This document shows positions 880 through 34,106 of a DNA stretch of 34,106 nt, piece after piece. The stretch spans positions 1-34,106 of the forward strand of contig JADDOW010000116.1 of the NCBI GenBank assembly GCA_016782225.1. Reading direction: 5' to 3'. This stretch comes from Nitrososphaeraceae archaeon. GTDB taxonomy: Archaea > Thermoproteota > Nitrososphaeria > Nitrososphaerales > Nitrososphaeraceae. The notes under the pieces were generated by a model. The model was given only the letters and a program-made list of their open reading frames with translations, was not told where the DNA came from and made no database searches. Made by a program: the position numbers and the translations under genes. The first letter of the stretch is position 1; each line of letters begins with the position of its first letter.

Positions 880-926
880 GCAATACTACAAAACTTCACT
901 GCATGCCACAATAAATTTTTCTCTAA

Positions 927-3068: not shown

Positions 3069-3076
3069 TTTTGGGT

Positions 3077-3970: not shown

Positions 3971-4334
3971 TCAATCAAACTAACCACTTTTTAATATATA
4001 TGGGAAGATGCTCTATGTAATAGATTTAAGATTAAAGCTTATCAAATATAACTTACTAATGACTAAATCAATTATAACATTTTTAGATGGTTGTTCTATA
4101 TAGTTACATTTTGTAGCAATAACTTTACTCAATATGATGCGGCAATTCTCTTAAAATGATCCATTACCAAAGATAATGACAGTATTAGTATTAGTATTAT
4201 CAAGCATTCGAGAGCAAGTTGGATGTTACCGTAGATATAAATCGGGCAATGTGGTATACGAGAGATCAAGGGTTGGCGAATCTTGATACAATACTCTAAT
4301 CATATAATTGAAAAAAAAAATATAACAATTGTTG
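3971..4334. other. Intergenic with divergent promoters
   Basis: AT-rich stretch between two divergent genes. It holds the reverse-strand TATA box (3991-4000) of the beta-helix gene and, near 4302-4309 (TATAATTG), the likely plus-strand TATA box for the gene at 4335. A short TAGTATTAGTATTAGTATTA microrepeat lies near 4180-4199. No further gene seen. Confidence 0.4.
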
Positions 4335-4574
4335 ATGCCAAAAAACCGATTAAACTTGTTGGGCAGGACAGATAAAATGAAAACAGATTTTGAAGGATTA
4401 AAAAAATTGGGGGTAATAATGGAAAAGAAGGCGATAAAAACAAAAAATAACCATTTTACGATATTGTGGGGAGGATTCGGCTTTGACAAGCAAAGGCCGA
4501 TAATTTGGAGGTTATTTGGTATTGGTAAAAAAAAGAGATTTGATGAACCCGGAAAGCAGGTTGCAAAAAAATAA
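4335..4574 (+). CDS. Lys-rich basic small protein, unknown function
   Basis: A 79-residue frame starting MPKNRLNLLGRTDKMK and ending GIGKKKRFDEPGKQVAKK. It is strongly basic, has no cysteines, signal peptide or membrane segment, and could bind nucleic acid (inference from charge only). A TATA-like box at 4302-4309 lies about 26-33 nt before the ATG. The ATG at 4378 (MKTDFEGLKKLG...) is an alternative start. Its stop is 37 nt from the stop of the convergent PRC-like gene. The long reverse frame over the same bases is Phe/Pro-rich and looks like a shadow. Identical copy at 27834-28073. Confidence 0.45.
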   Translation: MPKNRLNLLGRTDKMKTDFEGLKKLGVIMEKKAIKTKNNHFTILWGGFGFDKQRPIIWRLFGIGKKKRFDEPGKQVAKK

Positions 4575-4611
4575 ACCACAAACTTTTCATATCGCGATAA
4601 ACCTAGAAGAT

Positions 4612-4848
4612 TTACTCTTCGATTTTGTATTGGCTTTCTGCTTCTTCTTTTGTTATGCTGAACCTTACCTTACGGCCATCAAATTTGTCAACAAGACTTT
4701 TCGGAATAGAGTAAGTCTTCTTACTAACCCTACCAACTTTTGTTATTACGTTGGTATCTGTAATTCCTTGAATCTCGCCAAGATCATCGTCACCTATTCC
4801 TCTTGCCTCTTTTTTTATAGTGGCATTCCATTCAATACCCGAACTCAT
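4612..4848 (-). CDS. PRC-barrel-like small protein
   Basis: A 78-residue soluble protein. The start is MSSGIEWNATIKKEARG at 4846-4848 because a TATA box (4869-4878) lies 21-30 nt upstream; an in-frame ATG 36 nt further up would overlap that box. The sequence DLGEIQGITDTNVITKVGRV followed by KKTYSIPKSLVDKFDGRKVRF alternates short beta strands and turns, as in PRC-barrel or DUF2171-like domains, which are small beta-barrels that bind RNA or proteins. The C-terminus (SITKEEAESQYKIEE) is acidic. Assignment is by pattern, not a specific family signature. Identical copy at 28111-28347. Confidence 0.65.
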   Translation of the reverse strand: MSSGIEWNATIKKEARGIGDDDLGEIQGITDTNVITKVGRVSKKTYSIPKSLVDKFDGRKVRFSITKEEAESQYKIEE

Positions 4849-4868
4849 ATCAATACATGAAAAACGCA

Positions 4869-4878
4869 ATATATAAAT
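4869..4878 (-). promoter_or_regulatory. TATA box of the PRC-like gene
   Basis: The reverse-strand motif ATTTATATAT lies 21-30 nt upstream of the ATG at 4848. It decides the shorter start and implies a leaderless transcript. Confidence 0.5.
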
Positions 4879-4879
4879 A

Positions 4880-5357
4880 ATCATCGATAAACAAAATTAA
4901 GTCATCATTTTTTTTTGCTGGTTTAGTTAAACTTGTGGTGTAACTGGTATTTACAAAATCAATTTAAAATTACATAATTTGAGATGACTTTTTTTGCATT
5001 TCTGGGTTATTGCAGAGTGAAAATTGAGTCTTGTATCTGATGCGTCAAGAGGGCTAATTCAGATAACTTCTATATATAAGAGATCCTAATTTTTTGTGGT
5101 TATTATGGACTATGGAATTTTGATGCCAAATCAACTTATGCAGTTGATTGATTGTTTTCAATTAGCCTTTTCTTTGATTACGAAAAAAACTATAGGCAGT
5201 TGATGGAATAGATGTTAATCTCAAAACAGACTTTACTGTATTCCTGCAAACCCTAAGAAAAGATGAAATTGTTTTTCAAAGAAATTGCGAAGATCATCCT
5301 TTAGATTTAGACAATTGTAGACAATTAGTTATTATCGCTTGTAGTGTTTTCGCTTGT
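4880..5357. other. Intergenic, possible gene remnants on the plus strand
   Basis: No intact gene. A TATA-like TATATATAAG near 5072-5081 is followed by ATG at 5105 (MDYGILMPNQLMQLIDCF...) that breaks within about 33 codons. A second open stretch in another frame (about 5199-5403, VDGIDVNLKTDFTVFLQTLR...) has gene-like composition but no start codon. This could be a frameshifted small gene or chance frames in AT-rich DNA. I cannot assign a family. Confidence 0.3.
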
Positions 5358-6871
5358 TCAAGGAATTTCCTGAAGTTCAGTGTCAAAACTATTTCCACGG
5401 GCTGAATCTTTATTTCCATTAACAGTCATTCTGACATGCGCCGTGTTGCTGTCTGCAGTTCCGTCGCTGACCCTGAAGGTAAAGCTGTTCTTTCCTTTAA
5501 AGCCCTCAGCTGGCGTGTAGGCAAGCGCGCCTGTTGCCTCGTCAAACCCCGAAATCTCGCCTCACTTTGGCCCCGATGCTATTGCGTATGTGAGCGCATT
5601 GCCGTCGGGGTCGCTGGCCCTGAGTGTAATGTCCGCTGGTGTGTTTGCTGTTGTCGTTACGCTCTGGCTTTCAGCCACGGGCGGTGCATTCACTTTGTTA
5701 ACTATTACTCGAACCGTTTTGTCAGATGACAATTCGTTTCTATCAGTTACTGTTAGCCTAAAAGTCATTGTCTGCTGGTTATCTGTTCCATCCCATAAAG
5801 GGGCATCAAAGCTTGCCTTTGGCTTATTGCCGTCTTTAATGTTTACAGGCAGACCAAAAGTCTGAGTCATTGATATGTTACACTTTTGTCATCCTTTGAA
5901 TCAAAACTATCGGAGCCATCAAGGACAATGTCGCTTGTTCCTTCCATTACCGTCTGTTCATTGACCAGGTCAACTACAGGGGAATTGCATCCGGTCCTGT
6001 CCCATATTGCCGCACTTGACGTGATTATTGTGTTTATAACACCTTCTGTGATCAAGTCCGATACCATAACCATTGAAAATCTGTAATTGAATGAGTCTAT
6101 ATAATCACAAATCCGGCTATCGTAGGAGTTATCGTCTTTTATGTTGCCAATGGAATTTTCCAATGAGTTCATTAACCCTTGTTGAACGCTTGAAGGCAAA
6201 TCTAAAAGGAGAACAATATCCCTTAGTTCCGCAATGGAATCCCTCAGTGATACAATAGTCAAAGAGAACGTTACGGATGTTTGATCTTTGTTGCCTGATG
6301 TATCTACCGCCCTAACCTGAATTGTGTGCAATCCCTGTTCCAAGTTGAGATAATAGCAACCAGCCTCATTTGGTTGGTATTTTACTGTACTTGCTTGCCA
6401 ATTTTTGTCATCCAATTTGCATTCAAAACCCATTATCCCCACCTTGTCAACTCCATTGAACCTAAAGCCTATGTCGTCTGAGATTGTACTTTCGTTGTTC
6501 TCAATTTGGCCCAACCAACTAACCTTGGCTGTTTCAGAAGATGTGATTTTTCTTCCAAATTATCTGAGCCGTCTATAGCGGTACAGTTTACTGTCGTCTC
6601 GCCCATCCTAAAAGTACTTCCTGATGACGGTATGCATTGTGGGACTATGTTGCCACCTACATCATCTGACGCAGAAACATCAAAACTAACAATAGCCCCC
6701 TGCGGTCCTGTTGACTCAGCTATCACTGGGTCATTGGGTGTAGTTATTGTTGGGACACGGTATCTGCTGATTGTTGCATTCCAGGGTTTGTGCATAGGCA
6801 GCAGGTTGGCAGACATAAACAAATGATGCAATTGTTATTAGCAAAATCAATGGCATGAAATATTTATCCAA
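5358..6871 (-). pseudogene. Multi-lesion secreted adhesin (HYR + PKD/cadherin-like domains)
   Basis: Read across three frames, one large exported protein can be rebuilt. It starts at TTG 6871 or ATG 6856 (MPLILLITIASFVYVCQPAA signal peptide) and breaks after PCPNNNYTQ. Frame 2 carries a HYR domain (TTPNDPVIAESTG ... CTAIDGSDN). A lost A in the A-run near 6545-6550 then moves it to the frame ITSSETAKVSWLGQIENNES, with GLHTIQVRAVDTSGNKD. That frame ends at DKSVTYQ, where TGG appears to have become TG (about 5868), and TQTFGLPVNIKDG continues in the third frame. A nonsense TGA follows ASGPK (5562-5564), after which GALAYTPAEGFKGKNSFTF (cadherin-like) runs in frame to 5358. Three frameshifts and one nonsense codon are shared exactly with the copy at 28857-30370. 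Confidence 0.83.
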
Positions 6872-7508
6872 TTCATAAAGACAAAAAAACCTGAATATTT
6901 AAGTGCTGTTTCTTTAGGGTTAGTTCTGTTTGGTTTATCCAAATATCGAAAAGTGTTCCCTGTATGTGATTATATGTGATTATAACACGTTATTGTATCG
7001 CAAACCTAACCTAAAGGTTAAGAATTAACAATTCTGCTTTTTTTATCTTGGATTGTTTCAACCATCACTTATGTGGATGGTTTAATGTAAATTTTTTGGG
7101 ATATCCGGATAATGGCGGAATCTTAAAAACCTATACCTTAGGGTTGACATCCTGCCTAATTTTAGATAACTTTGCATGTTGGTTTTTGTTATGGTCTATG
7201 CAATTATGGGTGAGTTTTAATACCATATTAGTTAACAATTTTGGGTTCCAAATCTGGATCCGCCTAGACCTCAGAATCATTGTCGATGGGCTGAGCGGGC
7301 ATTCTCAAATAATTTTATTTCTGATGTGCTTAACTTTGGCATGATTGTGAATAGGGTATGGGTATCTGGTTATTGTTGGGGCGACTTGCAACATAACATA
7401 ATATCTTTGAAACATTTTCCAGAGCAATTGCCATACAGTACATATGGATGGATATATTGCCATGGAAAGCACAAAACATAGATACTATGAAAATCCTTTA
7501 TTGTTATA
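6872..7508. other. Intergenic, no convincing gene
   Basis: The adhesin's reverse-strand TATA-like box (around 6893-6903) lies at the left. A 98-codon plus frame at 7048-7344 is Trp/Leu/Phe-rich, has no family resemblance and no promoter, and I regard it as noise. The right end contains the ferritin promoter region. Confidence 0.4.
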
Positions 7509-8021
7509 ATGCGAATATCATCAAATATGGCAAAAGCAATCAATGACCAAATATCTTTTGAGGCATCATCTGCCAATGCTTATACCGCAATCGGATCATG
7601 GTGCGAGAGAACAGGATATGATGGAAGTGCCGCTTTCTTTTTTGAGCAGGCTAACGAAGAAAACGGGCATATGCTAAAGTTCCTCCATTACCTTAATGGC
7701 ACTGGGGCGGAGGCAGTAATCCCAGCAATTGATAAACCACCTGGTAATTTTGAATCCCTGGAAGCTACTTTCCAATTTGGCCTAAAGAGCGAGCAGGCTG
7801 TAACCAGGTCGATATACGATCTGGTCGACATGACTGAACAGGAAAAGGACCGCTCCACATACTCATTCTTACAGTGGTTTATTATTGAACAAATAGAAGA
7901 GGAGACATTGTTCCAAACAATTCTCCAAAAGTTTGATTTGCTTGGTAGGGACAAACTGGCAGTATATAAAATTGACCAGACCCTGTCATCTATCAGGTCA
8001 CAGGTAGGGGTAAGCAAGTAA
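7509..8021 (+). CDS. ftn: Ferritin (FtnA-like, non-haem)
   Basis: A 170-residue ferritin, normal family length. It stores iron by oxidising Fe2+ at a di-iron centre inside a four-helix bundle that assembles into a 24-mer cage. Residues matching the E. coli FtnA ferroxidase centre are all present: E18 (QISFEASSANAY), E51 and H54 (EQANEENGHM), E95 (LKSEQAVTR), Q128 and E131 (FLQWFIIEQIEEE). The FLQW...EQ.EEE...IL..L block is typical of FtnA rather than bacterioferritin, and no haem-ligand Met is obvious. No operon partner. An identical second gene lies at 31008-31520, so gene dosage may be doubled if the duplication is real. Confidence 0.93.
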   Translation: MRISSNMAKAINDQISFEASSANAYTAIGSWCERTGYDGSAAFFFEQANEENGHMLKFLHYLNGTGAEAVIPAIDKPPGNFESLEATFQFGLKSEQAVTRSIYDLVDMTEQEKDRSTYSFLQWFIIEQIEEETLFQTILQKFDLLGRDKLAVYKIDQTLSSIRSQVGVSK

Positions 8022-8623
8022 ACCAAGGATTACCCCTGCTATTTGGTGGAAATTCTCCTTTTCATATTTTTTAGAAGTAGCAATTCAAATACGGTAAAAA
8101 GGGCATTCCATTAATTCTTTAAAGTTTGGCGACATTTGTCTCGTACCATACTCTGTTATATTGAGTCTAACCCTAACAATTTATTGATGATGAAAAGATG
8201 CTTTTTTGTAAACCCTGAAACACATTAACATAAAAATACTGCAAAAACTTTCAAATAACACATAGTAGACTGCGGAATTAACTTCCTTGTGATGAAGGGT
8301 TTAATGCTGTTAGAATGATTCAACCAGTTTTATCCTATTTTACCCTATTCGGTTTGAATTAGTTGTTGGGCTACACTAATGTTGAATTATTTTTAATGTT
8401 TGGTTACTAAAGTCAAAATCATCATTTATAGCAATGAAGAGCCTTTCAAATGCCTGCATGCATTAAACTTCGTTACCCTTGTTCCCTTTTTATCAACACA
8501 TAGTGATGGATAATGGATAGTGCTGCAGGGCATGATGTTTTTATTCTTATTTTCCCACCCTTGCAAAAGCAATTTCTTTTATTCCTAAACCCCTGTAACT
8601 GTTGCTATGACCACAACCTTTCT
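8022..8623. other. Intergenic with short coding-like fragments
   Basis: No intact gene. On the reverse strand, 8225-8085 reads MCFRVYKKASFHHQ, a TAA, then a coding-like tail (QMSPNFKELMECPFYRI). 8459-8376 is a 27-codon frame (MQAFERLFIAINDDFDFSNQ...). Both are within what AT-rich DNA can produce by chance, so I do not call them genes. The 81-codon plus frame at 8513-8758 is the hydrophobic shadow of the small reverse gene at 8624-8785. Confidence 0.3.
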
Positions 8624-8785
8624 TCAATGAAATGTTTGTTGCTTTTTGGCATTTTCCGAATTGAATTTGTGTTTGTGTTCTTTATCGTCTTCGTATTTTG
8701 GTTTCCAGATGGTTTTTACAGTTATGTAATTATCCTCTGTTTTCTCAAACCCAATTAGTTGGTTGGCGACTCTGAATCTTTTCAT
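8624..8785 (-). CDS. Small charged protein, 53 residues, unknown function
   Basis: The reverse-strand ATG at 8785 opens MKRFRVANQLIGFEKTEDN, continuing with VKTIWKPKYEDDKEHKHKF and ending KKQQTFH with TGA at 8624. The first 30 residues have the strand-like pattern of a small beta domain; the tail is highly charged (Lys/His/Asp/Glu). No cysteines or signal peptide. An AT-rich box (ATACTAAAAAAG) lies 20-30 nt upstream. I do not recognise a family. Protein-like composition is the main evidence. Identical copy at 32123-32284. Confidence 0.4.
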   Translation of the reverse strand: MKRFRVANQLIGFEKTEDNYITVKTIWKPKYEDDKEHKHKFNSENAKKQQTFH

Positions 8786-9153
8786 GAATTACATTCTCGA
8801 ATCTTTTTTAGTATCGAAGTGGATGCCTCCAACAGATTCGTTGTATTGGACACATAAAGGGATGATATGTCGAGTGACAGGCTTGCAAATTACATAAACT
8901 ACAGGTTTTTATTTTAAATGTTACATTGTAGAATAACAAGCCATGGGTACTATAGATCCTGTTCCTAAAAACGCTTTTTACATTGTCATTTAATGGTTAT
9001 CTATAAGAGTAACGTATTTAAAAATGCACAACAACCAATGCATATGGACTTTATGTGATCTCAATTTCATTGATGTGAATTATCGAAAATTATGCATAAT
9101 TGCTTTTGTTGAATTTTTGAAAAATATATAAATTACATAAATAGGTATTAAAG
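8786..9153. other. Intergenic, promoter region of the 9154 gene
   Basis: AT-rich, no gene seen. Its right end contains the TATA box at 9123-9132. Confidence 0.4.
9123..9132 (+). promoter_or_regulatory. TATA box of the 271-residue gene
   Basis: AATATATAAA lies 22-31 nt upstream of ATG 9154, a typical archaeal leaderless arrangement. Confidence 0.55.
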
Positions 9154-9969
9154 ATGGGGAAAATGCGTGAGAAATTGGATAAATTCTGTGTAAAAAAAAT
9201 ATACTCTACAAAACCAGGCACAGCAGAGTTATACATTCCGGACAATATTGCAAGTGATAACTACAATGATGGTGTTTACTATCAGAAACTAAACAGGATA
9301 AGAAACATCGGTGGTGAAAAAACCAGATCAAATGACATATGCTTTAAAAAATCGATGGTAGATCAAGAGGTTACAGGATATTTCAAGTATGTTAATGACT
9401 TGGCCTTTGCTGATGCAAAGTTGAGGGGAGGACACCATTCAAATCGTAGCGATGATTCAGCTAGGTGCTACATATTCGCCATTAAATCATTAAAATTTCA
9501 AAAGGAATACCCTCACGATGGCGGATATAGCTATTCGATGCATAACCTAAAAACCAAAGATAGGGAAACAAAAAGAGAGTATGGGCCAGAAGAAAGGATC
9601 AAGTTTGATCTAAATTTTGATGGCCTAAGAGAAAGGTGGATTGGCTTTAAGGGCGTCACAATAAACGAGGGTTCAGACAAAGTACGTTGCGAGATGCACC
9701 TTGATACAGAAGGAATTGATGCAAATGGCAGCTTTGATCATACCCGACAGAATTGGAGACTGTGGTATAGCGTTTTGGATGAGGACGGTAAATATGGTTT
9801 TGATAAACAAGATGGCAATAAAAAAAGAAAAACAAGTAAAGCTTGGACCACCGCACAAAAAAACAGTACAGTGCAATTTAGAGTGGATGCCGAGAAAGGA
9901 AATACTAGCATGACTTTGAAGAACAAAGATTTCAGGTTCCTGTCTGCAAGGGAGATAACAAGACCATAA
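9154..9969 (+). CDS. Hypothetical beta-rich protein, 271 residues
   Basis: Intact gene with a good TATA box and a hairpin 58 nt after its stop. No signal peptide, membrane helix or P-loop. The N-terminus is basic and cytosolic in type (MGKMREKLDKFCVKKIYSTK). The middle has alternating-strand segments: DQEVTGYFKYVNDLAFADAK, LRGGHHSN, ARCYIFAIKSLKFQKE, YPHDGGYSYSMHNLK, IKFDLNFDGLRERWIGFKG, VRCEMHLDTEGIDANGSFD and NWRLWYSVLDEDGKYG. This resembles concanavalin A-like jelly rolls found in glucanases, alginate-lyase-type enzymes and lectins, with conserved-looking Trp, His and Asp residues on the strands. Carbohydrate binding or cleavage is inference only; I see no recognised catalytic motif. Identical copy at 32653-33468. 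Confidence 0.7.
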   Translation: MGKMREKLDKFCVKKIYSTKPGTAELYIPDNIASDNYNDGVYYQKLNRIRNIGGEKTRSNDICFKKSMVDQEVTGYFKYVNDLAFADAKLRGGHHSNRSDDSARCYIFAIKSLKFQKEYPHDGGYSYSMHNLKTKDRETKREYGPEERIKFDLNFDGLRERWIGFKGVTINEGSDKVRCEMHLDTEGIDANGSFDHTRQNWRLWYSVLDEDGKYGFDKQDGNKKRKTSKAWTTAQKNSTVQFRVDAEKGNTSMTLKNKDFRFLSAREITRP

Positions 9970-10026
9970 TAATCCCTGGCAGAATTTTTCATTTCTTGAC
10001 TTTCTTTGTGTTTACTTTGTTGATTA

Positions 10027-10056
10027 AATTAAAGTGATAGATATATCACTTTAATT
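10027..10056. terminator. Perfect 13-bp inverted repeat downstream of the 9154 gene
   Basis: Arms 10027-10039 and 10044-10056 (AATTAAAGTGATA and its exact complement) flank a GATA loop. It lies 58 nt past the stop codon and is followed by TAAAAATTTTTAAAATTT. It could act as a hairpin terminator or mRNA-stabilising element, or as a palindromic protein-binding site. Repeated at 33526-33555. Confidence 0.45.
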
Positions 10057-10175
10057 CTTCTAAAAATTTTTAAAATTTATCAACGTTATGGTCTATATCC
10101 CATAAACAGAATATAAAAATTATTTGATTAATATGCTTGTTAGAATAATGTAATATCTAAAACGTTAAAATGTAA

Positions 10176-10328
10176 TTATGAGCCTTTGTCAACAACATCC
10201 ATGTATGCCATTTTCCTACTCCTTGCGATATTGGAGTACCCATAAAACTTGTCAATTTCGCTGCCTGATGGTTTTGATGACAACAAGCATCTGGTAGTAT
10301 CTGAATACCATAATGAGGTTGTGATGGA
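10176..10328 (-). pseudogene. Possible remnant or small gene without a start codon
   Basis: The reverse-strand frame between stops at 10331 and 10176 reads SITTSLWYSDTTRCLLSS, KPSGSEIDKFYGYSNIARSR and KMAYMDVVDKGS: 50 residues with very protein-like composition but no ATG, GTG or TTG near its front. It may be the 3' end of a gene truncated upstream, or a chance frame. Family not recognised. Identical copy at 33675-33827. Confidence 0.3.
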
Positions 10329-10437
10329 TTAGATGATAACTAAGGACACTGTATTATGTTATGCCACATGAACACTTATTTTCCATTTAATATGGGATGA
10401 TTAGTATGTTGCATCCAGAACTTCCGGGACAGCGGCT

Positions 10438-10620
10438 TTAACATGGGGCATAATGACAGCTAATGTTCCTTAATTCCATTACAAAATTAAAGAATTGGCA
10501 ATTAAATAAAACATGCCTATGGCTCTCCCTGGCCGATGAATTGTCATCTGCTCTCCATATGCTCAGTATTGGTATTTTCCTGAGTTGTGTGTGTGAAATT
10601 ATCTTTTCAACAAGGGGCAT
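10438..10620 (-). CDS. Small protein beginning MPLVEKIISHT, unknown
   Basis: A 60-codon reverse frame from ATG 10620. Its first codons lie inside the 270-bp exact repeat; downstream it diverges from the paralogous region at 15597-15691. After a frame correction the two still align as RKIPILSIWRADDNSSA versus KPITVVWKADGSPSA, i.e. divergence that keeps amino-acid similarity, which argues for a once-translated sequence. An AT-rich box (10639-10655) lies 19-35 nt upstream. The last 25 residues are less convincing. A (CA)4 tract sits at codons 9-12 and could shift the frame by slippage. Function unknown. Confidence 0.4.
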   Translation of the reverse strand: MPLVEKIISHTQLRKIPILSIWRADDNSSARESHRHVLFNCQFFNFVMELRNISCHYAPC

Positions 10621-10661
10621 TTCTCATTTTCTAATTTAAAAAAATAAAGTAAAGTTAACGA

Positions 10662-10784
10662 TTAGGCAGTTATTGGTCTTTCTTCTGCTCTTTCTAATTC
10701 TGGTTGCTGCAGTTTCTTTTCGTTTCTTTTCTCTAAGGTCTTTTTCTGATCTGCTTTTTCTGGAATTTCATAATCAAAGCACAT
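10662..10784 (-). CDS. 40-residue charged microprotein (MCFDYEIPEK type)
   Basis: ATG at 10782-10784 opens MCFDYEIPEKADQKKTLEK, then a Lys/Glu/Arg/Gln-rich helix (KKLQQPELERAEERPITA) and TAA. It has one cysteine, no membrane segment, and probably forms one amphipathic or coiled helix. ATTTAAAT at 10811-10818 on this strand is placed 27-34 nt upstream, as for other genes here, so I think it is transcribed. The next small ORF on the strand starts 42 nt downstream (10620). An identical copy lies at 15733-15855. Function unknown; being carried whole in a dispersed repeat makes it notable. Confidence 0.6.
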   Translation of the reverse strand: MCFDYEIPEKADQKKTLEKRNEKKLQQPELERAEERPITA

Positions 10785-10810
10785 ATGTAATCATAATATT
10801 AAAAAACATA

Positions 10811-10818
10811 ATTTAAAT
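10811..10818 (-). promoter_or_regulatory. TATA box of the 40-residue microprotein gene
   Basis: ATTTAAAT lies 27-34 nt upstream of the reverse-strand ATG at 10784. The same box recurs at 15882-15889 in the repeat copy. Confidence 0.5.
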
Positions 10819-10844
10819 AGTTATAAAAAAGGAAGAAAGAAAAT

Positions 10845-11382
10845 CAGTTTAGTTTATCCTTTGCATAAAATGAATGATTTGTTTTTTGTCTTGGACAATC
10901 CATTTGTGATTGTCTATAAAAAAAGGTTGATGGTTACACAGCACTACGCCATTTGAGAACGGATGCCTTTCATTAGTTATTGCGTTAATCGTATATGTGT
11001 AGTGAAAATATGGATGAGTTGATTAAACGGGTAAGGAAATGAAAACATAGTTATCTATATGGAATGGAAATCTTAACCGTAGAGACAAAAATAGCAATAG
11101 TGGTTGAAAATGGCAAAATATGCATTAAAAAATCAATATGATAAAAATTAGTTTCCCATACTTTTGATATTTTGGATATTGACTTTATCCAAAAAATAAT
11201 CAATTTTCAATATTGAAATTGAATCCATAGAATGAGAATTCTATTCTTTTTCATAAAATAAAAGATGACTTGATGTAATCAGAGTTCTAGTCCGCCTTGT
11301 TTCATGTGTACCATATTTCAAAAGCATTGTTTGTGATTTTGCCAATACCTTCGGTAAAAAAGAGAGGGGGCATAAGGGGTTG
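10845..11382. other. Intergenic, no convincing gene
   Basis: AT-rich DNA. The only notable frame is a 25-codon plus-strand ORF at 11064-11141 (MEILTVETKIAIVVENGK...), coding-like but too short to support without homologues. Confidence 0.4.
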
Positions 11383-12066
11383 TTATTGTTGTGATTGTGC
11401 GTTGTTGCCCGTGTTTAGTTGATTTTGCAAGTTAATGTTGTTGCCAGAGCCCACGGTGTCTCCGCCTGACACCACTTGACTGTTTTGGATTGATGATTGG
11501 TATTGACCTATTACCTGTGAAGCCTTGTTGCCCCCACTGCTACTGCCACCTTGTTGCCCTAGTGCGTTGTTTCCAGAGTTTTGCTGGTTTTGGGTGCTTA
11601 TGTTATTGCATGAGTCTTCGGTGTTGCCGCCAGAAACACATTGTGCGTTTTGGATTGATGATTGGAATTGTTCTATAACCTGTGAAGCTAAGTTGCCCCC
11701 ACTGCTACTGCCACCTTGTTGCCCTAGTGCGTTGTTTCCAGAGTTTTGCTGGTTTTGGGTGCTTATGTTATTGCATGAGTCTTCGGTGTTGCCGCCAGAA
11801 ACACATTGTGCGTTTTGGATTGATGATTGGACCTGCCCTATAATTTGTGAAGCCCAATTGCCTTCGCCATCATGGTTTTTGCTGTCATGTTCCTTACAAT
11901 AGTCTTTATGTTCATTATAGTAATTTTCGCTGTCACATTTTTCTGATTTGTGGGCAGAGGCAACGTTGTCGCCAGTGCTAGACGCTACCGGACCTAGAAA
12001 CAGAGCTATCGCAAATACTGCTACAGCTAATATTGTAAATTTTTTTGTTTGATTTGACCTTAACAT
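11383..12066 (-). CDS. Secreted N/Q/S-rich protein with three 55-residue repeats
   Basis: A 227-residue exported protein. I start it at ATG 12066 (MLRSNQTKKFTILAVAVFAI, basic and then hydrophobic, signal peptide to about residue 38); the longer upstream frame would bury this signal. After an acidic/His segment (KCDSENYYNEHKDYCKEHD) come three repeats on the pattern SQVIxQxQSSIQNAQCVSGG, then NTEDSCNNISTQNQQNSG, NNALGQQGGSSSGG. The first two carry a Cys pair (QCV and SCN); the third loses both (QVV, SGN). The Q-x-N/N-x-Q periodicity resembles curlin-like beta-solenoid repeats, so an extracellular fibre or matrix role is possible (inference). It ends in NAQSQQ. Stand-alone gene. Confidence 0.72.
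   Translation of the reverse strand: MLRSNQTKKFTILAVAVFAIALFLGPVASSTGDNVASAHKSEKCDSENYYNEHKDYCKEHDSKNHDGEGNWASQIIGQVQSSIQNAQCVSGGNTEDSCNNISTQNQQNSGNNALGQQGGSSSGGNLASQVIEQFQSSIQNAQCVSGGNTEDSCNNISTQNQQNSGNNALGQQGGSSSGGNKASQVIGQYQSSIQNSQVVSGGDTVGSGNNINLQNQLNTGNNAQSQQ
11528..11831 (-). repeat. 165-bp tandem repeat inside the secreted protein gene
   Basis: 11528-11666 and 11693-11831 are essentially identical with a period of 165 bp (55 codons). The outer third unit is diverged. DNA-level identity implies recent duplication or gene conversion of the unit. Confidence 0.8.
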
Positions 12067-12788
12067 TTTATCCTTAATTTCAATAGTAACAATAAAGATA
12101 TAATAATTTTCAAAGATAGTTAGGATAACTAATACTGTCAAATAAACCTGTAATAATACAATAGAAAAGATTTCGAATTTCTTTAAATTCCATCAACAAG
12201 AAATCCTATAGACATTTTAAAAAATATTGGGTAACGGCGCCTAAGGGAGAATACATCATAATCACAAAGAGGAAACATATGATAAAGAGGTTTTTGCACG
12301 ATTGAAATTACCATATTTGATGTTAAACCGATGAAATGCCTTTGTTGTGGCATAAAGAACCAATAAAATTGAAGGTTTAAGAGTATGTGTATTAATGGCA
12401 GAATAATTTCCAAAAGAAAAGATACCTTTCATAATGAGTATAAGCAAATGTAAGAAACAGAAAAGACCAAACTGAAGGATAAAGTCAATCAATCATAAAC
12501 TAAACGATGGTACAAAATCTTTGTCGACTAACTGCTAATGAATAAACATATCATTTAAAATTTGTGAATCTATTGTGTGTTGAGTAATACGCTAAATAAC
12601 ACTAACCTGTGCAAACAAAGACTCTGGGACTTGGTGGGCTGCAACGCAATTGGTGCGGCCTAATTTACAGAAGTAGGAACACAGGCAAAATTGTTTATAC
12701 GGATATCAGGGGTTGGTTTTTCTTGTGGCCTAATGAGGGGTTTGCAATCACAAAGAAGGCTTTTATGCTTTCTTGGCATATACCGGTC
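12067..12788. other. Intergenic, no convincing gene
   Basis: It holds the probable TATA box of the reverse-strand 11383 gene (around 12095-12107) and two overlapping reverse frames (12183-12492) without gene-like features. An in-frame extension of the zinc-ribbon gene runs up to 12609 but has no promoter or family resemblance. A TATA-like TTTATGCTT near 12759-12767 supports the downstream start at 12789. Confidence 0.4.
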
Positions 12789-12926
12789 ATGGATAAAGTT
12801 GTATTTTGCAAAGATTGCAATCACAAAGCAGGCGAGCATGGTGTTTTCGGTGATTCCGATGCTAACGAGCCGCATCCATGCATGAGATCTGATTGCGGTT
12901 GCAATAGGTATGTACCGTCAGAATAG
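12789..12926 (+). CDS. 45-residue zinc-ribbon microprotein
   Basis: Starts MDKVVFCKDCNHKAGEHG and contains C7xxC10, H12, H17, H29, C31, C36 and C38 (HPCM and DCGC), ending NRYVPSE. The spaced Cys/His pairs can bind one or two zinc ions; small proteins of this pattern are common in Nitrososphaeria and unassigned. I chose the ATG at 12789 rather than the in-frame start at 12609 because all conserved-looking residues fall after it and a TATA-like box lies about 25 nt upstream. It probably mediates protein or nucleic-acid contacts (inference). Confidence 0.65.
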   Translation: MDKVVFCKDCNHKAGEHGVFGDSDANEPHPCMRSDCGCNRYVPSE

Positions 12927-13236
12927 TTTTTGGTTCACACCAAACTTATTCTGAGATTAAATCCTCTGTAATGCAACAGAACCCCAATTTCTGAATATTT
13001 TGTCAAGATTATTTTAAATTAACATTTTCCCTTCATGCGTTTAATGGCATACTGTGAATTGTGATAGAAACAGGCTATGTATTTTTACAGTTTGCGCCTT
13101 AAGCATTTATCCTTAACCGAGAGTTTTGATTCGGAAATGCGAAAGCAACGCATGGCCTTTTTCGCTTGTTATTGTTTTCTGATGGGCAAGAAAGCTAATG
13201 CATTGGAAAGGCAAGTGGAAAAAGAGGGCACTTTTC
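12927..13236. other. Intergenic, no gene seen
   Basis: AT-rich spacer between the zinc-ribbon microprotein and the 3' end of the decayed dehydrogenase. The plus frame starting at 13077 overlaps the cupredoxin remnant and looks like a shadow. Confidence 0.4.
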
Positions 13237-14156
13237 CTATTCTACTGTTATTTCTCCAACCATTTCCGGGTGATAAATGCAGTAATAATCAAATTCCCCA
13301 TGCGCATCAAACGTCAAACCATAGTATTGGCTAGGAATGACCGCACCGGAATCAAACATTATGCCCTCGTATGGATCAACGTCCTCTCCTGAAGTCACAG
13401 TATGGGAAATTGTGTCTCCATTTAACCATGCTATTGTTTGTCCCACACCAATTTCAATTGGATTGGGTGTGTAGGAATCATCATCCTCAATGCCGGCAAT
13501 GACTGCAGTGGTGTAGTTGACTATTTGAGTGCCATTTTCAGAAGCAATTATGGGTGTAATGCCGGGCGATTGGTATCCTGGCGTCTTACTTTCAGATGAT
13601 GGCAATATCCTGTGCAAATCTCCTGTGTGGCTTAGCACATACAGGTAACCGTCAGGACCTGCCTGAATATCCGTTATGCCGCCAAAACCCTGCCCAAAGG
13701 TTAAACCCTGTTTTCGGGTGTACCATCAACCTCACCATCAGACAAGGCTTCTACATCACCAACGTAGGTATCGTTTATCATGGAAATCCCATCCCGTTCC
13801 TCGTTGAGGGTGAGCCTATAATTCCCAACAAACCTCGTTCCTTATCTGATGCTACCTGCACATCAAGTGCATGGGGTTTTGGACCTTACCGTTTATGACC
13901 TCCATAACTCTGCCGGTGTTTTTTTCAGTTATGAGGATGTCGTTATGCCTATAAATGCCATGCTGGTTGGAAATTTTAAACCGTCTGCTACCTTTTCAAC
14001 GGTGAGGTTATCGTCGTTCACCGTTGGCCCAAAAACTGAGAATGGGGCTTTGGAATGTGCGCCAAAAGATAAATTAATTATAGGCTGCGGAATTAGTGAA
14101 AAGATTAGCAGAAGGGTAAATACAAAAAAAGAAAAAGTTAGTCTGTATTTTTGCAT
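13237..14156 (-). pseudogene. Decayed PQQ sugar dehydrogenase-cupredoxin fusion
   Basis: The remnant keeps both ends of a two-domain exported redox protein. From ATG 14156: a signal peptide (MQKYRLTFSFFVFTLLLIF), then NLTVEKVADGLKFPTSMAFI, which is the start of soluble glucose/sorbosone dehydrogenases. A frameshift follows and the next frame continues NDILITEKNTGRVMEVINGK. Much of the beta-propeller is missing; GGITDIQAGPDGYLYVLS (about 13630-13690) marks its C-terminal end. It reads directly into an open cupredoxin domain (NPIEIGVGQTIAWLNGD, ISHTVTSG, YYCIYHPEM), where the Cys, His and Met of type 1 copper sites are kept. About 517 nt remain for a domain that normally needs over 1 kb. In the intact family sugar oxidation at PQQ would pass electrons to the copper domain. 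Confidence 0.82.
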
Positions 14157-14230
14157 GTCAGTTATAAAATGACTTGACTGGGTTATCTAATTAAGTTTTG
14201 ATGACATTCTTATATTCAAAGAAATCAAAC

Positions 14231-14701
14231 CTATGCTGGCCGGACGGCATTACAGGAAATATTTCCAGTCCATAAAAAAACACTCCTAGGTCCTTTTTTA
14301 TTCATTATTTGATTGTTTAAAAGTAATTGCGCCAACCTGTTGCAGCAATCCAATCGATCCACCGCATCCCAATGTTCCACAATTTTTTCATTCTCTATTT
14401 TATAGAGTCCTGCTGATCTTGTTTTTACTGTTTTGTTTGTAGGTGGTCTTCCCTGAAATGCCCCTTATGTGTTGCAGTAAAATTAAGAAACACTACCACA
14501 AGGCTATCTTCTTCAACTATGTGCTCTATGTCCGCAGGGATGTCAGGAAACGCCGTGAGGAACGGAGTTAATGGTGATTCTTTGAATTTTTTGAAATTTT
14601 TCATTTCCTGCCAAATATTTTTCATTGGCTGATATGTCGTGATTATTGAAAACTTCTTCTACATATGATTTAACAAGCGCCTTGTTTGTTGATGGAGACA
14701 T
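14231..14701 (-). pseudogene. Frameshifted SnoaL-like ester cyclase
   Basis: Three frames together rebuild a complete SnoaL-like (ester cyclase/NTF2-fold) protein of about 150 residues. ATG 14701: MSPSTNKALVKSYVEEVFNN (family NKxLVRRYxEEVxNxG) to ANEKYLAGN. The second frame gives PLTPFLTAFPDIPADIEHIV and VVVFLNFTATHKG. The third frame gives KTRSAGLYKIENEKIVEHWD and AVDRL (family xIVEHWxVxD), open down to TAG at 14231. Two single-base frameshifts break it. In the family these proteins are small cone-shaped enzymes of polyketide or other secondary metabolism, or of unknown role. A TATA-like GATAAATACC at about 14724-14733 is still present. Confidence 0.82.
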
Positions 14702-15596
14702 GTGAAATACATCTATGGCTATAGGTATTTATCTCTTGTATCGCTTAAGGAGTACATATGGGACTATAATGTTCATTTTAATAGGATGCCTGTATATTAT
14801 TGAAGGAGACGATTTATAGTATTGTTTCCAATAGACTATATAGGGAATGTCATCAATCACAAGATCATTCCTCGAGTTATAACGGTATTTAACATCAAAA
14901 CAATCCCTTCTTTTGATGCAACATTAAGATACCATAATAGGGCAACATATAGTGGCAGGTTGAATCGATTGGAAAATCAATGGGCGTTTGATATCGATAT
15001 TCGATCACATTTACAGGTATGTGCATACATGTCAAGAAGGTGGAGAAATAGTCAACGGGTTCGGGTCAAGCCTCGGGGTTTCCTCGGGGGTTATAACCAA
15101 AATTCAATAACTACGCTAATTAACATTTTACAGCAGGAAAACCTATAACCGTCGTTGTCATGAATGTTGGGTATTCCTGATTCTAAAACATGCATCAAAG
15201 AGCCTGGTTGGACCGACAGATATGATATTGGGAAACAAAAAACAATCGGATCTACTGCAATCATCATCATTGTCACCATCATCAAATAATCAAAAGTCCA
15301 GACCTCCACTGAATTATCCCCAAATTCCCAAGGGGACACCGTAAGTTATTTTTGTTGTATCTTGTTACTTGAATTCATAACATGCATTATCGATATTGGC
15401 TAAAATTCAATTGGCTGTGCATACTGCGAATGATGTGAATACGTGATGAGTTAAGCTTGGGAAATTCTTGCAATTATGTGCTATTGCAGTATATGTCGCT
15501 AGGGCCCATATTGCCTAGTCTGAAGAAAAGCAAGGAGACTCCTATGTGTACAACTATGCAAGATTACTTTGTTGTTGTTTGATCTCATAATGTACG
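14702..15596. other. Gene-poor stretch with possible secreted-protein debris
   Basis: No intact gene. Short plus-strand islands have protein-like composition in different frames: GEIVNGFGSSLGVSSGV near 15045-15095, TAGKPITVVVMNVGY near 15130-15173, and SSSLSPSSNNQKSRPPLN ending IPKGTP and TAA near 15345. They could be debris of one exported protein, but I cannot name it. The 108-codon plus frame at 14822 and the reverse frame at 15091-15339 are probably spurious. Confidence 0.25.
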
Positions 15597-15691
15597 CTAC
15601 ATAGCTGATGGACTGCCATCCGCTTTCCATACAACCGTTATTGGTTTTTCCTGAGTTGTGTGTGTGAAATTATCTTTTCAACAAGGGGCAT
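15597..15691 (-). pseudogene. Frameshifted paralogue of the MPLVEKIISHT small ORF
   Basis: From ATG 15691 the frame matches the small ORF at 10620 (MPLVEKIISHTQLRK) but stops at once (NQ, TAA). Shifting one base restores similarity, KPITVVWKADGSPSAM then TAG at 15597, against IPILSIWRADDNSSA in the paralogue. The two copies differ by one base in the A/T run after the arginine. Either this copy is broken or both descend from a longer intact form. Confidence 0.4.
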
Positions 15692-15915
15692 TTCTCATTT
15701 TCTAATTTAAAAAAATAAAGTAAAGTTAACGATTAGGCAGTTATTGGTCTTTCTTCTGCTCTTTCTAATTCTGGTTGCTGCAGTTTCTTTTCGTTTCTTT
15801 TCTCTAAGGTCTTTTTCTGATCTGCTTTTTCTGGAATTTCATAATCAAAGCACATATGTAATCATAATATTAAAAAACATAATTTAAATAGTTATAAAAA
15901 AGGAAGAAAGAAAAT
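15646..15915 (+). repeat. 270-bp exact dispersed repeat, copy 2
   Basis: Identical to 10575-10844 in the same orientation. The first mismatch on the right is T15916 against C10845. Outside the block similarity decays fast on both sides, so this is a discrete transferred or converted segment. No target-site duplication or terminal inverted repeats seen. Confidence 0.92.
15733..15855 (-). CDS. 40-residue charged microprotein, second copy
   Basis: Identical to the gene at 10662-10784, including its TATA box (15882-15889). Here the downstream companion ORF is frameshifted, so this microprotein is the only intact coding unit shared by both repeat copies. Confidence 0.58.
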   Translation of the reverse strand: MCFDYEIPEKADQKKTLEKRNEKKLQQPELERAEERPITA

Positions 15916-16154
15916 TAGTTTAATTCAACCTTTGATCGTTAAAGAATGATTGTATAACCAAAAGCACACCAAAAGCACTGTCCCATGTTGCGCCTGCCTA
16001 TTGCCTTGAGAATCAAGGGGAAGGACCACATCGCCAGGATATGGACACCCTTAACTTAACGGCGCCCTTTGCAACACTATATCCGTATGCATTTAGAGAA
16101 CTACTCGTGAAGTGCATCCAATCGGTTTTCCTCACTAAAAGAACCAAAAACATA

Positions 16155-16164
16155 GATATATAAA
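16155..16164 (+). promoter_or_regulatory. TATA box of the 16184 gene
   Basis: GATATATAAA lies 20-29 nt upstream of the ATG at 16184. A coding-like 24-codon ORF further left (15985-16059, MLRLPIALRIKGKDHIARIW...) is too short to call. Confidence 0.5.
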
Positions 16165-16183
16165 AAAAATAACATATTGCCTA

Positions 16184-16387
16184 ATGAGTGGTCAGACAAG
16201 AAAACATACTATCAAATGCCTAATGTGCTATGAAAAAATCACAGAGCCTTTAGGTCCTGATTTTGCTGAACCGCACATAACTGCCAACCCTGGTCATCTG
16301 GAATACAGAATAATTGTGGAAATGCCTTATCCAACTGTCCCAGATAACAAACCAACCCTGGTATTTGATGATGCAGAAAAACACTAG
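16184..16387 (+). CDS. 67-residue protein with one CxxC, unknown function
   Basis: MSGQTRKHTIKCLMCYEKI begins with a basic segment and a single CxxC (C12, C15). It continues TEPLGPDFAEPHITANPGH, LEYRIIVEMPYPTVPDNKP and ends LVFDDAEKH. The second half is Pro-rich and acidic, with no membrane segment. A strong TATA box defines the start. Two such monomers might share a zinc ion through the CxxC (inference). No neighbour on the same strand within 1 kb. Family not recognised. Confidence 0.58.
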   Translation: MSGQTRKHTIKCLMCYEKITEPLGPDFAEPHITANPGHLEYRIIVEMPYPTVPDNKPTLVFDDAEKH

Positions 16388-16756
16388 ATTTCAGATTTGC
16401 AATTGGCATTGCATCACTTTTAAATTCATAGATGTGCGTTGCATACATTTTATTGAATGTTGTGTGTGTGATTCTGGAGTATATTTAGCTCAATAGCAAA
16501 TAAAAACAATAGTAACTTGTGTTCAGCATTGAGTTTAAACCAAAGCAACTCCACATTACCATTGTTTTCCATTGCATCTTTTTTCTCTTTTAACTATGTG
16601 TGGTAGCCAAGACCCATACTCTTGACAAATATGTTGTGTTGGTCTTGCAAACTGTGCCTGTCACTGTTACCATTACCTTTGCTATATCAATAACCAATAA
16701 CAACACTAAGAAACGGATATGCCAAATTACCACCAGGTTCAATATGTGAATAGTGG
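16388..16756. other. Intergenic, no convincing gene
   Basis: AT-rich. A reverse frame at 16590-16796 (ending VTVTGTVCKTNTTYLSRVW...) lacks promoter and family support. Confidence 0.35.
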
Positions 16757-17095
16757 GCCATTCATACTGGATTATACAATGATGACAAATCAGCAACTAT
16801 GTTTCCTTGTGGATTTCATTCAAATAAGCATTGGGTTATTCAGAGGACTTTTGCATTTTCCATAATGCACAAAAGGGATTGAGAATATCTTTACCAAAAC
16901 ACAACAATATCACTGTCTTAAGATACCGGTTTAGACTTTATTTTACAATACAAAACGTGGTTTTAAACAATACATATAGGATAAAAAATGAGAAAGTTTA
17001 TTGGCCCGGTATTATCTTTCCCAGCATGTCCATTATGGGGTTTCCACCAGAAGTGTTGTTGTTCTGGCTTGTGGCATTGGAGGCTGATTGCCCTG
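16757..17095 (-). repeat. Paralogous block matching 23599-23946
   Basis: About 340 bp of clear but imperfect similarity to the 3' end and downstream flank of the secreted-protein gene at 23849-24274. Both coding and non-coding parts align, so a whole gene with its 3' flank was duplicated long enough ago to have diverged. Confidence 0.75.
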
Positions 17096-17129
17096 CTTGT
17101 TGTGCTTTTCCCAGTAGGAATTTAATAAT
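16998..17129 (-). pseudogene. Truncated copy of the AGQ-repeat secreted protein
   Basis: The reverse strand reads AQQAGQSASNATSQNNNTSG and GNPIMDMLGKIIPGQ, then TAA, matching the C-terminus of the gene at 23849. Codon differences in KIIPG are synonymous (AAG/AAA, CCG/CCC). Upstream it continues IIKFLLGK without an ATG, as if the signal peptide (MIKYIT... in the intact gene) had been joined to the C-terminus by an internal deletion and the start codon then lost. No functional product expected. Confidence 0.65.
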
Positions 17130-17281
17130 AATATTTATATATTATAATAAATATTAGATATTTGAGGCATATGACATTAAAATGCAAAATATCACATATC
17201 ATCTAGGTATTTGGCACGGTATTCAAACTTGTCAACTAGGATTTGCATTTGTTAAGCTGTATGTACGGGTGTGATTGTTGA

Positions 17282-20200
17282 TTGAATACTTACACCAGTG
17301 AACCCGATACTTTCAACAATGAAAATATCGCGGACACAAGATCCAGTAAAAGAGAATCAGAACCCATTGAAATTTCATACTTAAAGTTTGCCAATGTCTT
17401 TAAAGAAGATCCATCAATAATGTCTCAAAAAATCGCAGCGGCAATCAATGTGCAGTTAACTTTGCCTGATGGCAGTGAAATCCCATTTGTTGCATTCAAT
17501 GGATTTAGCAATGCGTTAAATGAAGATAAGGTATACATTTATGGGCCTAGTGGTTCGGGAAAGTCTCGAACCATCTATGAGCTAATTAAACCCAAAGTCA
17601 CTAATCTAAACAACATATTCATAATAAACCCCCGAAATACCGTGACAGATGCGTCTGCAGAATTGGGAAGAATGGATCTATATGACTTGGTTGGTCTATT
17701 TTCAGACAATGACGCAGTAGTGTGGGATAACTTTCCTGATGACATGGTAAAAAAAGACTTTGATAGCGGAAGGAAAGCTCTTGAGATAATCATCTCCAAA
17801 AACATAAAAAACATTCTGATTGCCCTGAAACCAAAATACCTGGAGGCGTATCGGGACATAGCAACAAGCGTATTGGATTTATACCAACATTTTATGAAAT
17901 ATGATGGCGAAAACATCAAAGGAATTGTAAAACTGTATGGCACGAAAACAAGATTCAGTGAATTGTATCGGAAATATATTACAATGGACCTGGATAAAAT
18001 ATCCAATATACTTTGGGAAAAAGATCCCAATCCTTTAACTGTTCTTGACTATTATAATGACCTTTCCAACAAAGCAAGCCAAATGCGCTATAAAGAAGAA
18101 ACAAAGGACAAAAAATCATTAGACGCAGTTTTAGAGGCTGAAAACCTGCTGCATTCCACCGAATACTATGATCAACAATTTAGGTACATCAGCAACCTTG
18201 AAGAGCGCCGCAACGATTACGAATTTTTGTATACTCTGAGGTTATGCTACGAAATAGGATATAATCGAACCATCCCTAGTGTTGAAGAGCTGCAGAAAGG
18301 GATCTTTAACAGTGTATCCCCTAAAGAAGCAGCCAGAAAGCTAAACACCTGGGTTTATTTGTCAGGTCCATATTATTCCATGCATGATGCTGCAAGACAA
18401 TCCATAGAGTTCGATAGCCACATCAAAGTTAAAGTCATGAATTATCTTGCAGACAACTTTTCAAAAGTAGTTCCAAAAGAGAAAAACCAAATCTATGCGT
18501 TTAGTGTGTTCTTTGGCAAAAACATCCAGTATTTGCCACGCAAAGACCCAAAACAGTTTTTACCAAACCATGTCTATGAACACATGAAAAGCAGCAGGTA
18601 TTTTGAAAAGTGCATAGGCCAGGGAATAGGCGAAACTTTTTACTTACTAAATGAGGATATCAAAGAAACTGTTTTAGGGAGATTGGATGTTGATATTGAA
18701 TTTGCAGAGGGGTTTGGCTTTAGCCTTGGATCCAACTTCTCCTCATTGGATGAGACCCACAGGCAAAAAGTTTTTGAGAGAATCTACAGTGGTATGCCTT
18801 TCGCATCTTATTTTGGGGAAAGCCTGGGTCAAATATTCAAATACCTGCCAAAAAACGTACAAAAGGAGGTCTTTGACCAAATAAAAAAGAATGTTTTGTT
18901 TGCCAACGGCGTAGGCAGGGGTTTTGGTTACTCCTACAGCCTAATGGATACCGATCTTCAACATGAAATATTAGAGTACGCCAAAACAAACAGTGAGCTC
19001 ACCATAGGCCTTGGGTTGGGGCTTGGCAAAAATTTTTCATCATTAGGCAAGCAACTACAAATGGAGATATTGCATAGAGCCGAAAATAACCACATATTTG
19101 ATCAAGGTTTAGGCCATGGCATTGGCTATGTGTTTGAGCAATTTGACAAAACATTCCGGGAAAAAATGCTAACCCGTGCCGAAAAGGGTGTCCAGTCGGA
19201 TTTTGGCATAGGATTTGGTGTTGGTATCACTTTCACATACCTAACCAAAGAGTTTCAGAAAGAGATGGTTGAAAAAGCAAAGGAAGACGGTGAGTATGCA
19301 TATGGGCTGGGCATGGGTGCAGGCTATGGTTTTGGATATCTGTCCAAAGAATACCAGAATGAAATGATTTGGCTTTCGGAAAATAGCAAAAAATTTGCAT
19401 ATGGGCTTGGCTGTGGATTTGGCCTTGTGTTTAACTATCTGTCGAGGGGGATTAAAGACGATGCCTTTGCAAGGGCTGACAAAAACATTGATTTTGACCG
19501 TGGCTTGGGCTTTGGAATAGGGATTTCATTTGCTTACCTTGTCAAAAAACTTCAGGAAGAGATGTTCGACAGAGCGCACAAAGACGCTGAATTTGCATAC
19601 GGGCTAGGATACTCCCTCGGATATACATTTACCTACCTGCCAAAAGATTTGCGAAAAACAGTCCAAAAACAGTCTGAGAATAACCCATACATGAGAAGGG
19701 GATTTGGCTGTGGTGCTGCCTATGGGTTCCAATATCAGCACCCCGAAAAAAAGCGTGATTGCCTGAAAAAACTGGATATCGATGGGGAATTTGCAGTGGG
19801 CTTTGGCATTGGTGCAGGACGTCTCTTTAAGTATTTTTCACCAGGCTTTCAGACCAAACTTTTTGAAAAAACGAAAAAAAACCTCGTTTTGCATATGGAC
19901 TTGGCTATGGTTTTGGCTACATCTATACATATCATGGTGAGGATGTTCAAAAAAAAATTTCTGAAAAGACAGAACGCAATCCCGAGTTTGCCTTGGGGCT
20001 GGGCCATGGCCTTGGAGATACCTTTCCTCACCTTGGCAGAAGTTTGCAGCAGGAGATTTTTGAAAAAGCAGAACGCAATCCCGAGTTTGCCCTGGGGCTG
20101 GGCCATGGCCTTGGGGGATCGTTTAAGCATCTGCCTTTGGAGACCAAAAATGAAATAACATCCAGATCTGCCAACAACATCCAACTTGACATTGGCCTTG

Positions 20201-21336
20201 GAATTGGGATTGGAACCATGCTGTTCAGGCACCTGCCAACGGAGGAACAAAAAGAGATCCTTGAAAAAGCATCATTATCCAAAGACACTGGTTTCTCAAG
20301 GGGGCTGGGCATGGGAATAGGCCGCACACTGCAATACCTTGACAGCCAGCCGCATCAGCAGCAGAAGAGGGAAGTGTTTGGCATTGCCCAAAGCAACAGT
20401 CAATTTGCCATTGGCCTTGGCGAAAGTTTGGGCTTTGTGTCTCTTTGCAAAGACAATGGATTATACCAAGATATGGTAAAGAAAATTTATGGAAACCCTA
20501 TGTTAGTGAGGGGATATGGTGAAGGTTTGGGATACGCTTTTGCACTTGTGGACAAACAAGTGCAAAAAAACGCTTTAATGAAACTAGTGGAAAATACCCG
20601 CTTTTCAAGGGGGCTGGGCATGGGAATAGGCCGCACACTGCAATACCTTGACAGCCGGCAGAAGAGGGAAGTGTTTGGCATTGCCCAAAGCAACAGTCAA
20701 TTTGCCATTGGTCTGGGCCTGGGACTTGGGCGCATTTTCAAGTACCTTGACAGCCGGCAGAAGAGGGAAGTGTTTGGCATTGCCCAAAGCAACAGTAATT
20801 TTGGGAAAGGATTGACTTTTGCGTTGTCTGGCATCTTCAAGTTCCTTTCTGAAGATCAACAAACTGAAATAACGGCAAAAATCATGGCTCAGGGAAAACA
20901 AAAACAAAACTTGCTTGTAAAAAGCTTTGGCGAAGGCTTGGGCTGCAATTTTATGTCTTTAAAGGCACTATTGCAGGGAGAGGCATTCAGTATGACACAA
21001 AGTAACGATGACTTTGCAGAAGGGTTTGCAAATGGACTTGGCCAGATTTTCAAACACCTCGATGACCTGCTTCGGATGGAAATACTGGGGTTAATCGGCC
21101 GTAATCACAGGTTTGATGTGAATTTTGGAAAAAAGATTGGCCTGGAATTTCCCTCCTTGCACAGGAAATCTCAAAATGAAATTCTGAAGGCGATAGGAAT
21201 GGATTGCGCACGTCTGTTTGCCAAAGGTTTCACAACCGGTCTTGAATTCAGCTTTAGGTACTTGCATAAAGATTTACAAACCGAAATATTGAGCAAGTTG
21301 CCAAAAGAAAACTGGTCTCAGGGAGAAAAACTCTAA
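17282..21336 (+). CDS. Giant STAND-like P-loop NTPase with about 27 GLG-type repeats (frameshifted)
   Basis: Rebuilt product is about 1351 residues. TTG at 17282 is the first possible start after an in-frame TGA. Walker A is GPSGSGKS (88-95) and a Walker B-like strand is AVVWDNFPDD (145-154). A sensor-1-like NILIALKPKYLEA (177-189) and a winged-helix-like YSMHDAARQSIEF near 365-377 follow. This order is what STAND/AAA-type signalling NTPases show. From about residue 434 to the end, a 33-residue unit recurs about 27 times: [RK]A..N..FA.GLG.GLG..F.YL....Q.EI.. . STAND proteins usually carry ligand-sensing repeats here, so this is likely the sensor. An A8 run (19874-19881) shifts the frame; one extra A would restore it through to 21336. 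No effector domain is fused; the cyclase-receiver gene follows at 21544. I do not know this repeat as a named family. Confidence 0.75.
18581..21294 (+). repeat. 99-bp protein-coding repeat array (about 27 units)
   Basis: Units of 33 codons with conserved G-L-G-x-G-L-G and F-x-Y-L. Early units are diverged at DNA level. Units at about 19960-20120 are nearly identical (offset 99 bp: GAACGCAAT at 19972 and 20071). The sequence at about 20297-20420 recurs at about 20606-20714 with a 12-bp insertion difference and again in part at about 20750-20795. A few units are expanded to 34-39 codons. Confidence 0.85.
19874..19881 (+). other. A8 homopolymer frameshift site
   Basis: Eight adenines between ACG and CCTCG. 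Before the run the frame gives KTKKN and then loses the repeat pattern. One base over, it continues PRFAYGLGYGFGYIYTYHGE, exactly in repeat register. A 9-to-8 contraction explains it. It could be a sequencing error, slippage-mediated on/off switching or a true loss mutation. Confidence 0.8.
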
Positions 21337-21543
21337 CAAATAACATGACATGAATGCTGCGGCAAACAAAAAACAAAAACAAAGGATAGTACATGCAGAG
21401 TATCCATTTGCATAGGTTGTTGCCTTTGAGTGACTAGTCAATGGTGATTGGGTAACATACATAAGTATCATAGCTCATTATGCTAAATATTAGGATTAGA
21501 AGAGAGTGATTCTCTATATGATGACATTCCATCTATAAGCTCA

Positions 21544-23546: not shown

Positions 23547-23598
23547 CCTGTTAACCAAAACAGTACTGAATCATTTACTCGGGAATTAAATAATCCGC

Positions 23599-33936: not shown

Positions 33937-34106
33937 TTAACATGGGGCATAATGACAGCTAATGTTCCTTAATTCCATTACAAAATTAAAGAATTGGCAA
34001 TTAAATAAAACATGCCTATGGCTCTCCCTGGCCGATGAATTGTCATCTGCTCTCCATATGCTCAGTATTGGTATTTTCCTGAGTTGTGTGTGTGAAATTA
34101 TCTTTT
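33937..34106 (-). CDS. MPLVEKIISHT small ORF, second copy, 5' end cut by the window
   Basis: Corresponds to 10438-10607 of copy A; the start codon would lie at 34119, just outside the window. The visible part is identical. Confidence 0.38.
   Translation of the reverse strand, partial: KIISHTQLRKIPILSIWRADDNSSARESHRHVLFNCQFFNFVMELRNISCHYAPC

Follow-up and report, generated by a model that had tools for sequence, protein, structure and literature searches.

Lineage-specific microproteins are a general class in archaea. The microprotein described here resembles them in being short and charged, in having its own promoter and no recognised domain, and in being restricted to one family. It differs by a constant Met-Cys start and an E-E-x-P-I tail, and by its absence from family libraries: the members collected with our widest profile (A5, see below) have no match in Pfam or NCBIfam, and a single one in PHROGs (E 0.044).

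The gene lies in a short dispersed repeat, which invites comparison with two other described systems. Cassettes of the MITE or insertion-sequence type are short dispersed repeats with terminal inverted repeats and common edges; the repeat studied here is also short and dispersed, but it has neither of these features and it contains a conserved cellular gene. The homogenisation of gene families by gene conversion (concerted evolution) is described for prokaryotes (PMC8223754). The likeness to that process is a short identical tract inside diverged paralogues, the difference being that here conversion is deduced from one assembly.

The 270-bp repeat and its gene

The window, i.e. the whole stretch of DNA that was analysed, is a complete contig (C28, 34,106 bp). 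The genome to which it belongs measures 2.62 Mb, is split into 118 contigs and has 3.15% contamination. Comparison of the sequences bears out the original prediction that 10575–10844 and 15646–15915 are identical (270/270); these copies, A and B, are about 5 kb apart (Table 1). At the 87% identity that separates them from the other paralogue, the computed chance of finding no difference in 270 bp is about 5e-17. The flanks had been said to diverge, and they do, but they are not unrelated: homology goes on at 71% (30/42) downstream and at 79% (15/19) just upstream, and a weaker match widens the pair to 10532–10879 and 15604–15951. Elsewhere in the same genome, only contig C79, with a third copy (82%), and the last 33 bp of the window match; the DNA search of this assembly found no further exact copy of the core. 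At a threshold of E 0.001, 15 of 101 genomes (that of the window included) have a match, in many cases a partial one.

Table 1. Features of the repeat and its surroundings in the window (G001, a related genome; C79, the third copy in the same genome).
Feature	Position	Strand	Remark
40-codon microprotein gene, copy A (MCFDYEIPEK...EERPITA)	10662..10784	-	translation; family in 51/70 Nitrososphaeraceae genomes
40-codon microprotein gene, copy B	15733..15855	-	translation; identical to copy A
TATA-like box TTTAAAT, copy A	10811..10817	-	27–33 bases upstream of ATG, then conserved ATGTT
TATA-like box TTTAAAT, copy B	15882..15888	-	same as copy A box
T-run, possible archaeal terminator	10638..10644	-	about 20 bases past the stop codon
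Second ORF, 60 codons, starting inside copy A	10438..10620	-	frame interrupted in copy B, in C79 and in G001
Exact 270-bp core, copy A	10575..10844	-	270/270 vs 15646–15915
Exact 270-bp core, copy B	15646..15915	-	orthologous copy; G001:C75 matches both flanks
Diverged downstream flank, copy A	10532..10574	-	71% (30/42) vs copy B, 76% vs C79
Diverged upstream flank, copy A	10845..10863	-	79% (15/19) vs copy B, 79% vs C79
Downstream flank, copy B	15604..15645	-	88% vs G001 orthologue
Element reduced to its first 33 bp, second copy of the large duplication	34074..34106	-	cut by contig end

A promoter, the complete gene and some 87 bp of 3' sequence make up the core. The predicted protein is MCFDYEIPEKADQKKTLEKRNEKKLQQPELERAEERPITA, in which D, E, K and R make up 47% of the residues. 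The 12 copies of the genus that were aligned have an AT-rich TATA-like box and the motif ATGTT about equally far ahead of the ATG; within the window alone, the ATGTT pattern could be due to chance (2 occurrences against 0.51 expected, and 2 reached in 12 of 100 shuffles). In archaea the spacing between the TATA box and the transcript start is fairly standard, and with this usual spacing the position of the box would place the start no more than about 10 bases from the ATG, so that the mRNA is probably leaderless or nearly so.

The element had been predicted to contain a TATA box, a whole microprotein gene and the start of a second ORF. The first two are indeed present. The second ORF does begin within the element in copy A, but copy B has a frameshift in it. 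It has no Pfam match. Its residues resemble those of shifted frames in copy B, G001 and C79, and it therefore reads as probably decayed coding sequence that travels with the microprotein gene, rather than as the second gene of a cassette.

Origin of the identical copies

Two exact copies dispersed over about 5 kb could in principle result from the recent copy-and-paste of a tiny mobile cassette carrying the microprotein gene, as was initially suggested. We rejected this, and consider it very improbable, on the following grounds. The cassette edges have no terminal inverted repeats: no inverted pair joins the two edges, and the longest pair is 70% complementary and has one arm inside the gene. 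When copies A, B, C79 and that of G001 are aligned, the edges differ from copy to copy, and the homologous unit extends beyond the edges of the exact core. The copy of the relative lies in orthologous flanks. Paralogues in other genomes of the genus have mainly the promoter and the coding sequence in common, a scan of a collection of viral contigs returned no relative of the repeat, and the own assembly lacks another exact copy.

What the comparison reveals instead is an identical core inside homologous flanks that have diverged (100% versus 71% and 79%). Outside the A–B pair, the core distances are close to one another: copy B and G001 share 243/269 positions (90%), copy A and C79 share 218/250 (87%), and G001 and C79 are 87% identical. 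Downstream of the core, A is 76% identical to C79, and B is 88% identical to G001; in the near upstream flank, A–C79 and B–G001 are both at 79%, like A–B. The flanks of A and B are thus as distant from each other as those of A and the third copy. The relative's contig G001:C75 (1–2907) aligns to 14213–17097 at 85%, and since the flanks of copy B match it on both sides, B is the orthologous copy. In copy A, the flanks are those of an older paralogue while the core is identical to that of B, a pattern that a non-reciprocal exchange of about 270 bp, in either direction, explains.

We consider it probable, though not certain, that A and B are stand-alone microprotein genes of a Nitrososphaeraceae family, each with its own archaeal promoter, and that they are older paralogues of which 270 bp were recently made identical. 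Gene conversion, which we infer from the sequences, would be the mechanism of this homogenisation. The repeat would then illustrate how the homogenisation of paralogues can mimic a mobile cassette.

The absence of copy A from G001 does not bear on this interpretation. Contig G001:C225 joins the homologues of positions 9505 and 11300, with 91 bases between them. The gene that spans 9505 (match 9154–9969) is truncated in G001:C225, although the window and another contig of G001 have it at full length. This makes the absence uninformative: the segment 9505–11300 was probably lost by a deletion in G001. With this loss and the homology of the flanks, no empty site is available in which a target-site duplication could be read.

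It may also be that the identity of A and B is an artefact, in that the true paralogues differ and one core was placed at both sites by the assembler or during gap filling. We consider such an assembly chimera, which would yield the same pattern, to be unlikely. In its favour, the genome is fragmented and contaminated to the extent given above, contig C28 contains two copies of a 7.55-kb stretch, and it ends 33 bp inside the element, which suggests that the assembler had trouble there. Against it, C28 runs through both copies into differing flanks, and the flanks of copy B are confirmed by G001. Moreover, paralogues that are 82–90% alike do not usually collapse in assembly.

A microprotein family of the Nitrososphaeraceae

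The family consists of charged proteins of 33–52 residues with the pattern MC...YE...E-E-x-P-I. With a threshold of E 0.1, a protein search matched 23 of 101 genomes. Profile A1 (19 rows, threshold E 0.05), run on a sample of 300 genomes of the order, matches 39 of them, 36 within the Nitrososphaeraceae and 3 weakly outside (E 0.006–0.03). Profile A4 (E 0.05) has matches in 44 of the 70 Nitrososphaeraceae genomes, while A5, the widest (E 0.01), has them in 49 of 400 genomes of the order, i.e. 48 in the family and a weak one outside (G367, E 0.003). Taken together, members occur in 51 of the 70 Nitrososphaeraceae genomes: the 48 reached with A5 plus G005, G024 and G033, which match A1 at E 1.5e-7 or better. 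Copies A and B both match A5 over their full length (E 3e-16), the protein of the window being itself part of the A5 alignment. In a sample of the phylum, 4 of 398 genomes match, all 4 within the Nitrososphaeraceae. With the three profiles, 19 of the 70 genomes of this family have no convincing match, including a complete genome of the same genus (G007). Judged from these searches, the family is specific to the Nitrososphaeraceae lineage and duplicated in the genus of the window.

Two kinds of members can be distinguished, one beginning with MC[FYC][DE]YE or a near variant (the kind found in the window) and the other with MC[DE][FY]; most members have the tail E-E-x-P-I or a similar one. Three close copies in the own genome are of the first kind, the third being that on C79, and one distant paralogue (on C7) is of the second. 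The earlier suggestion of a multicopy microprotein family was correct. Among 35 chosen rows, M1 and C2 are present in all 35, the tail proline in 34, and I, L or M follows this proline in all 35; the middle of the protein varies in sequence and length.

The dN/dS ratio is 0.10–0.63 in 14 of 16 pairs, which indicates purifying selection on the reading frame; the two exceptions, G014–G009 (0.86) and G012–G013a (2.41), rest on few changes. This bears on the idea that a small RNA or a piece of regulatory DNA is what is conserved, the ORF being incidental. The gene is tiny and the promoter-like sequence well conserved, as this idea would have it. However, conservation follows codons in most pairs, and the protein profiles reach many genomes in which the DNA search has no match. 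The repeat has no match in Rfam, and the small RNA was rejected on that account; we see hardly any chance for this explanation as a whole. Members of the family also decay, as is clear from the two G011 copies, both interrupted by a stop, and from one G013 copy that lacks its ATG.

Genes this short are missed by gene callers and by family libraries. The family is uncatalogued: neither Pfam nor NCBIfam has a model for it, and we found no paper about it in the open-licence literature. The value of the locus lies in this family rather than in the repeat. The ammonia-oxidising hosts matter to the nitrogen cycle, and a microprotein that is kept across a family of ammonia oxidisers offers peptide and knockdown studies a concrete target.

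Genomic neighbours and possible function

The neighbours of the gene vary within the genus, where the largest group of loci with a common neighbour is 5 out of 17. Of 23 other loci, 11 have the gene opposite those of endonuclease V and tRNA-guanine transglycosylase (TGT; one example of each annotation was confirmed in Pfam), a sign of vertical descent at a constant position in these genomes. Neither set of loci, 17 in the genus and 23 others, provides a neighbouring partner that would name the function. A toxin–antitoxin pair was rejected, since these loci show no conserved adjacent partner.

The AlphaFold model has low confidence (pLDDT 64, pTM 0.24) and consists of one helix (residues 9–35); a profile search of the PDB gave a single match at chance level (E 0.77). 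Our guess is that the microprotein could be a small soluble adaptor or regulator. It would bind a partner with both ends, the invariant N-terminus (MC...YE) and the conserved tail (E-E-x-P-I), between which lies a variable charged linker or helix. A more daring version, to which we give little credence, is that the N-terminal cysteine, exposed once Met is removed, and the E-E-x-P-I tail might bind a core cellular machine of ammonia-oxidising archaea, the dose of the microprotein being tuned by duplication and concerted evolution.

The large duplication and other features of the window

The alignment of 3059–10607 with 26557–34106 spans 7,550 columns, has a single gap and is free of mismatches. 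As predicted, the second copy of this duplication enters the element, but the 33 bp concerned (34074–34106) reach the last base of the contig, and no other contig of the own assembly continues them. The right end of the duplication is therefore not visible. The element had been proposed to be a recombination hotspot that set this end, with the breakpoint in or next to it; the proposal finds no support and was dropped, the apparent edge being the end of the contig. On the left side, G001:C75 supports the join at 26556/26557, and G001:C164, which matches 1–3047, ends just before 3059. The duplication may be a tandem duplication, a circular element of 23.5 kb or an assembly loop. We note that two contigs of G001 end near its left edge (homologues of 3047 and 26596).

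About 7 kb of the window (17098–24046) are absent from G001:C75. This segment is bounded by direct repeats that are 82% identical (16758–17099 and 23601–23950), of which G001:C75 has one copy, consistent with recombination between them having added or removed the segment. The stretch 19858–20803 contains imperfect 99-bp repeats inside the long ORFs 17282–20158 and 19993–21336, with no significant Pfam match. In the ORF at 21544–22824, an adenylate/guanylate cyclase domain precedes a response-regulator receiver domain, which is an unusual order. Last, three 165-bp direct repeats (11386–11880) lie in a 252-codon ORF on the minus strand, the second and third being 77% and 67% identical to the first; this stretch has many relatives within the genus.
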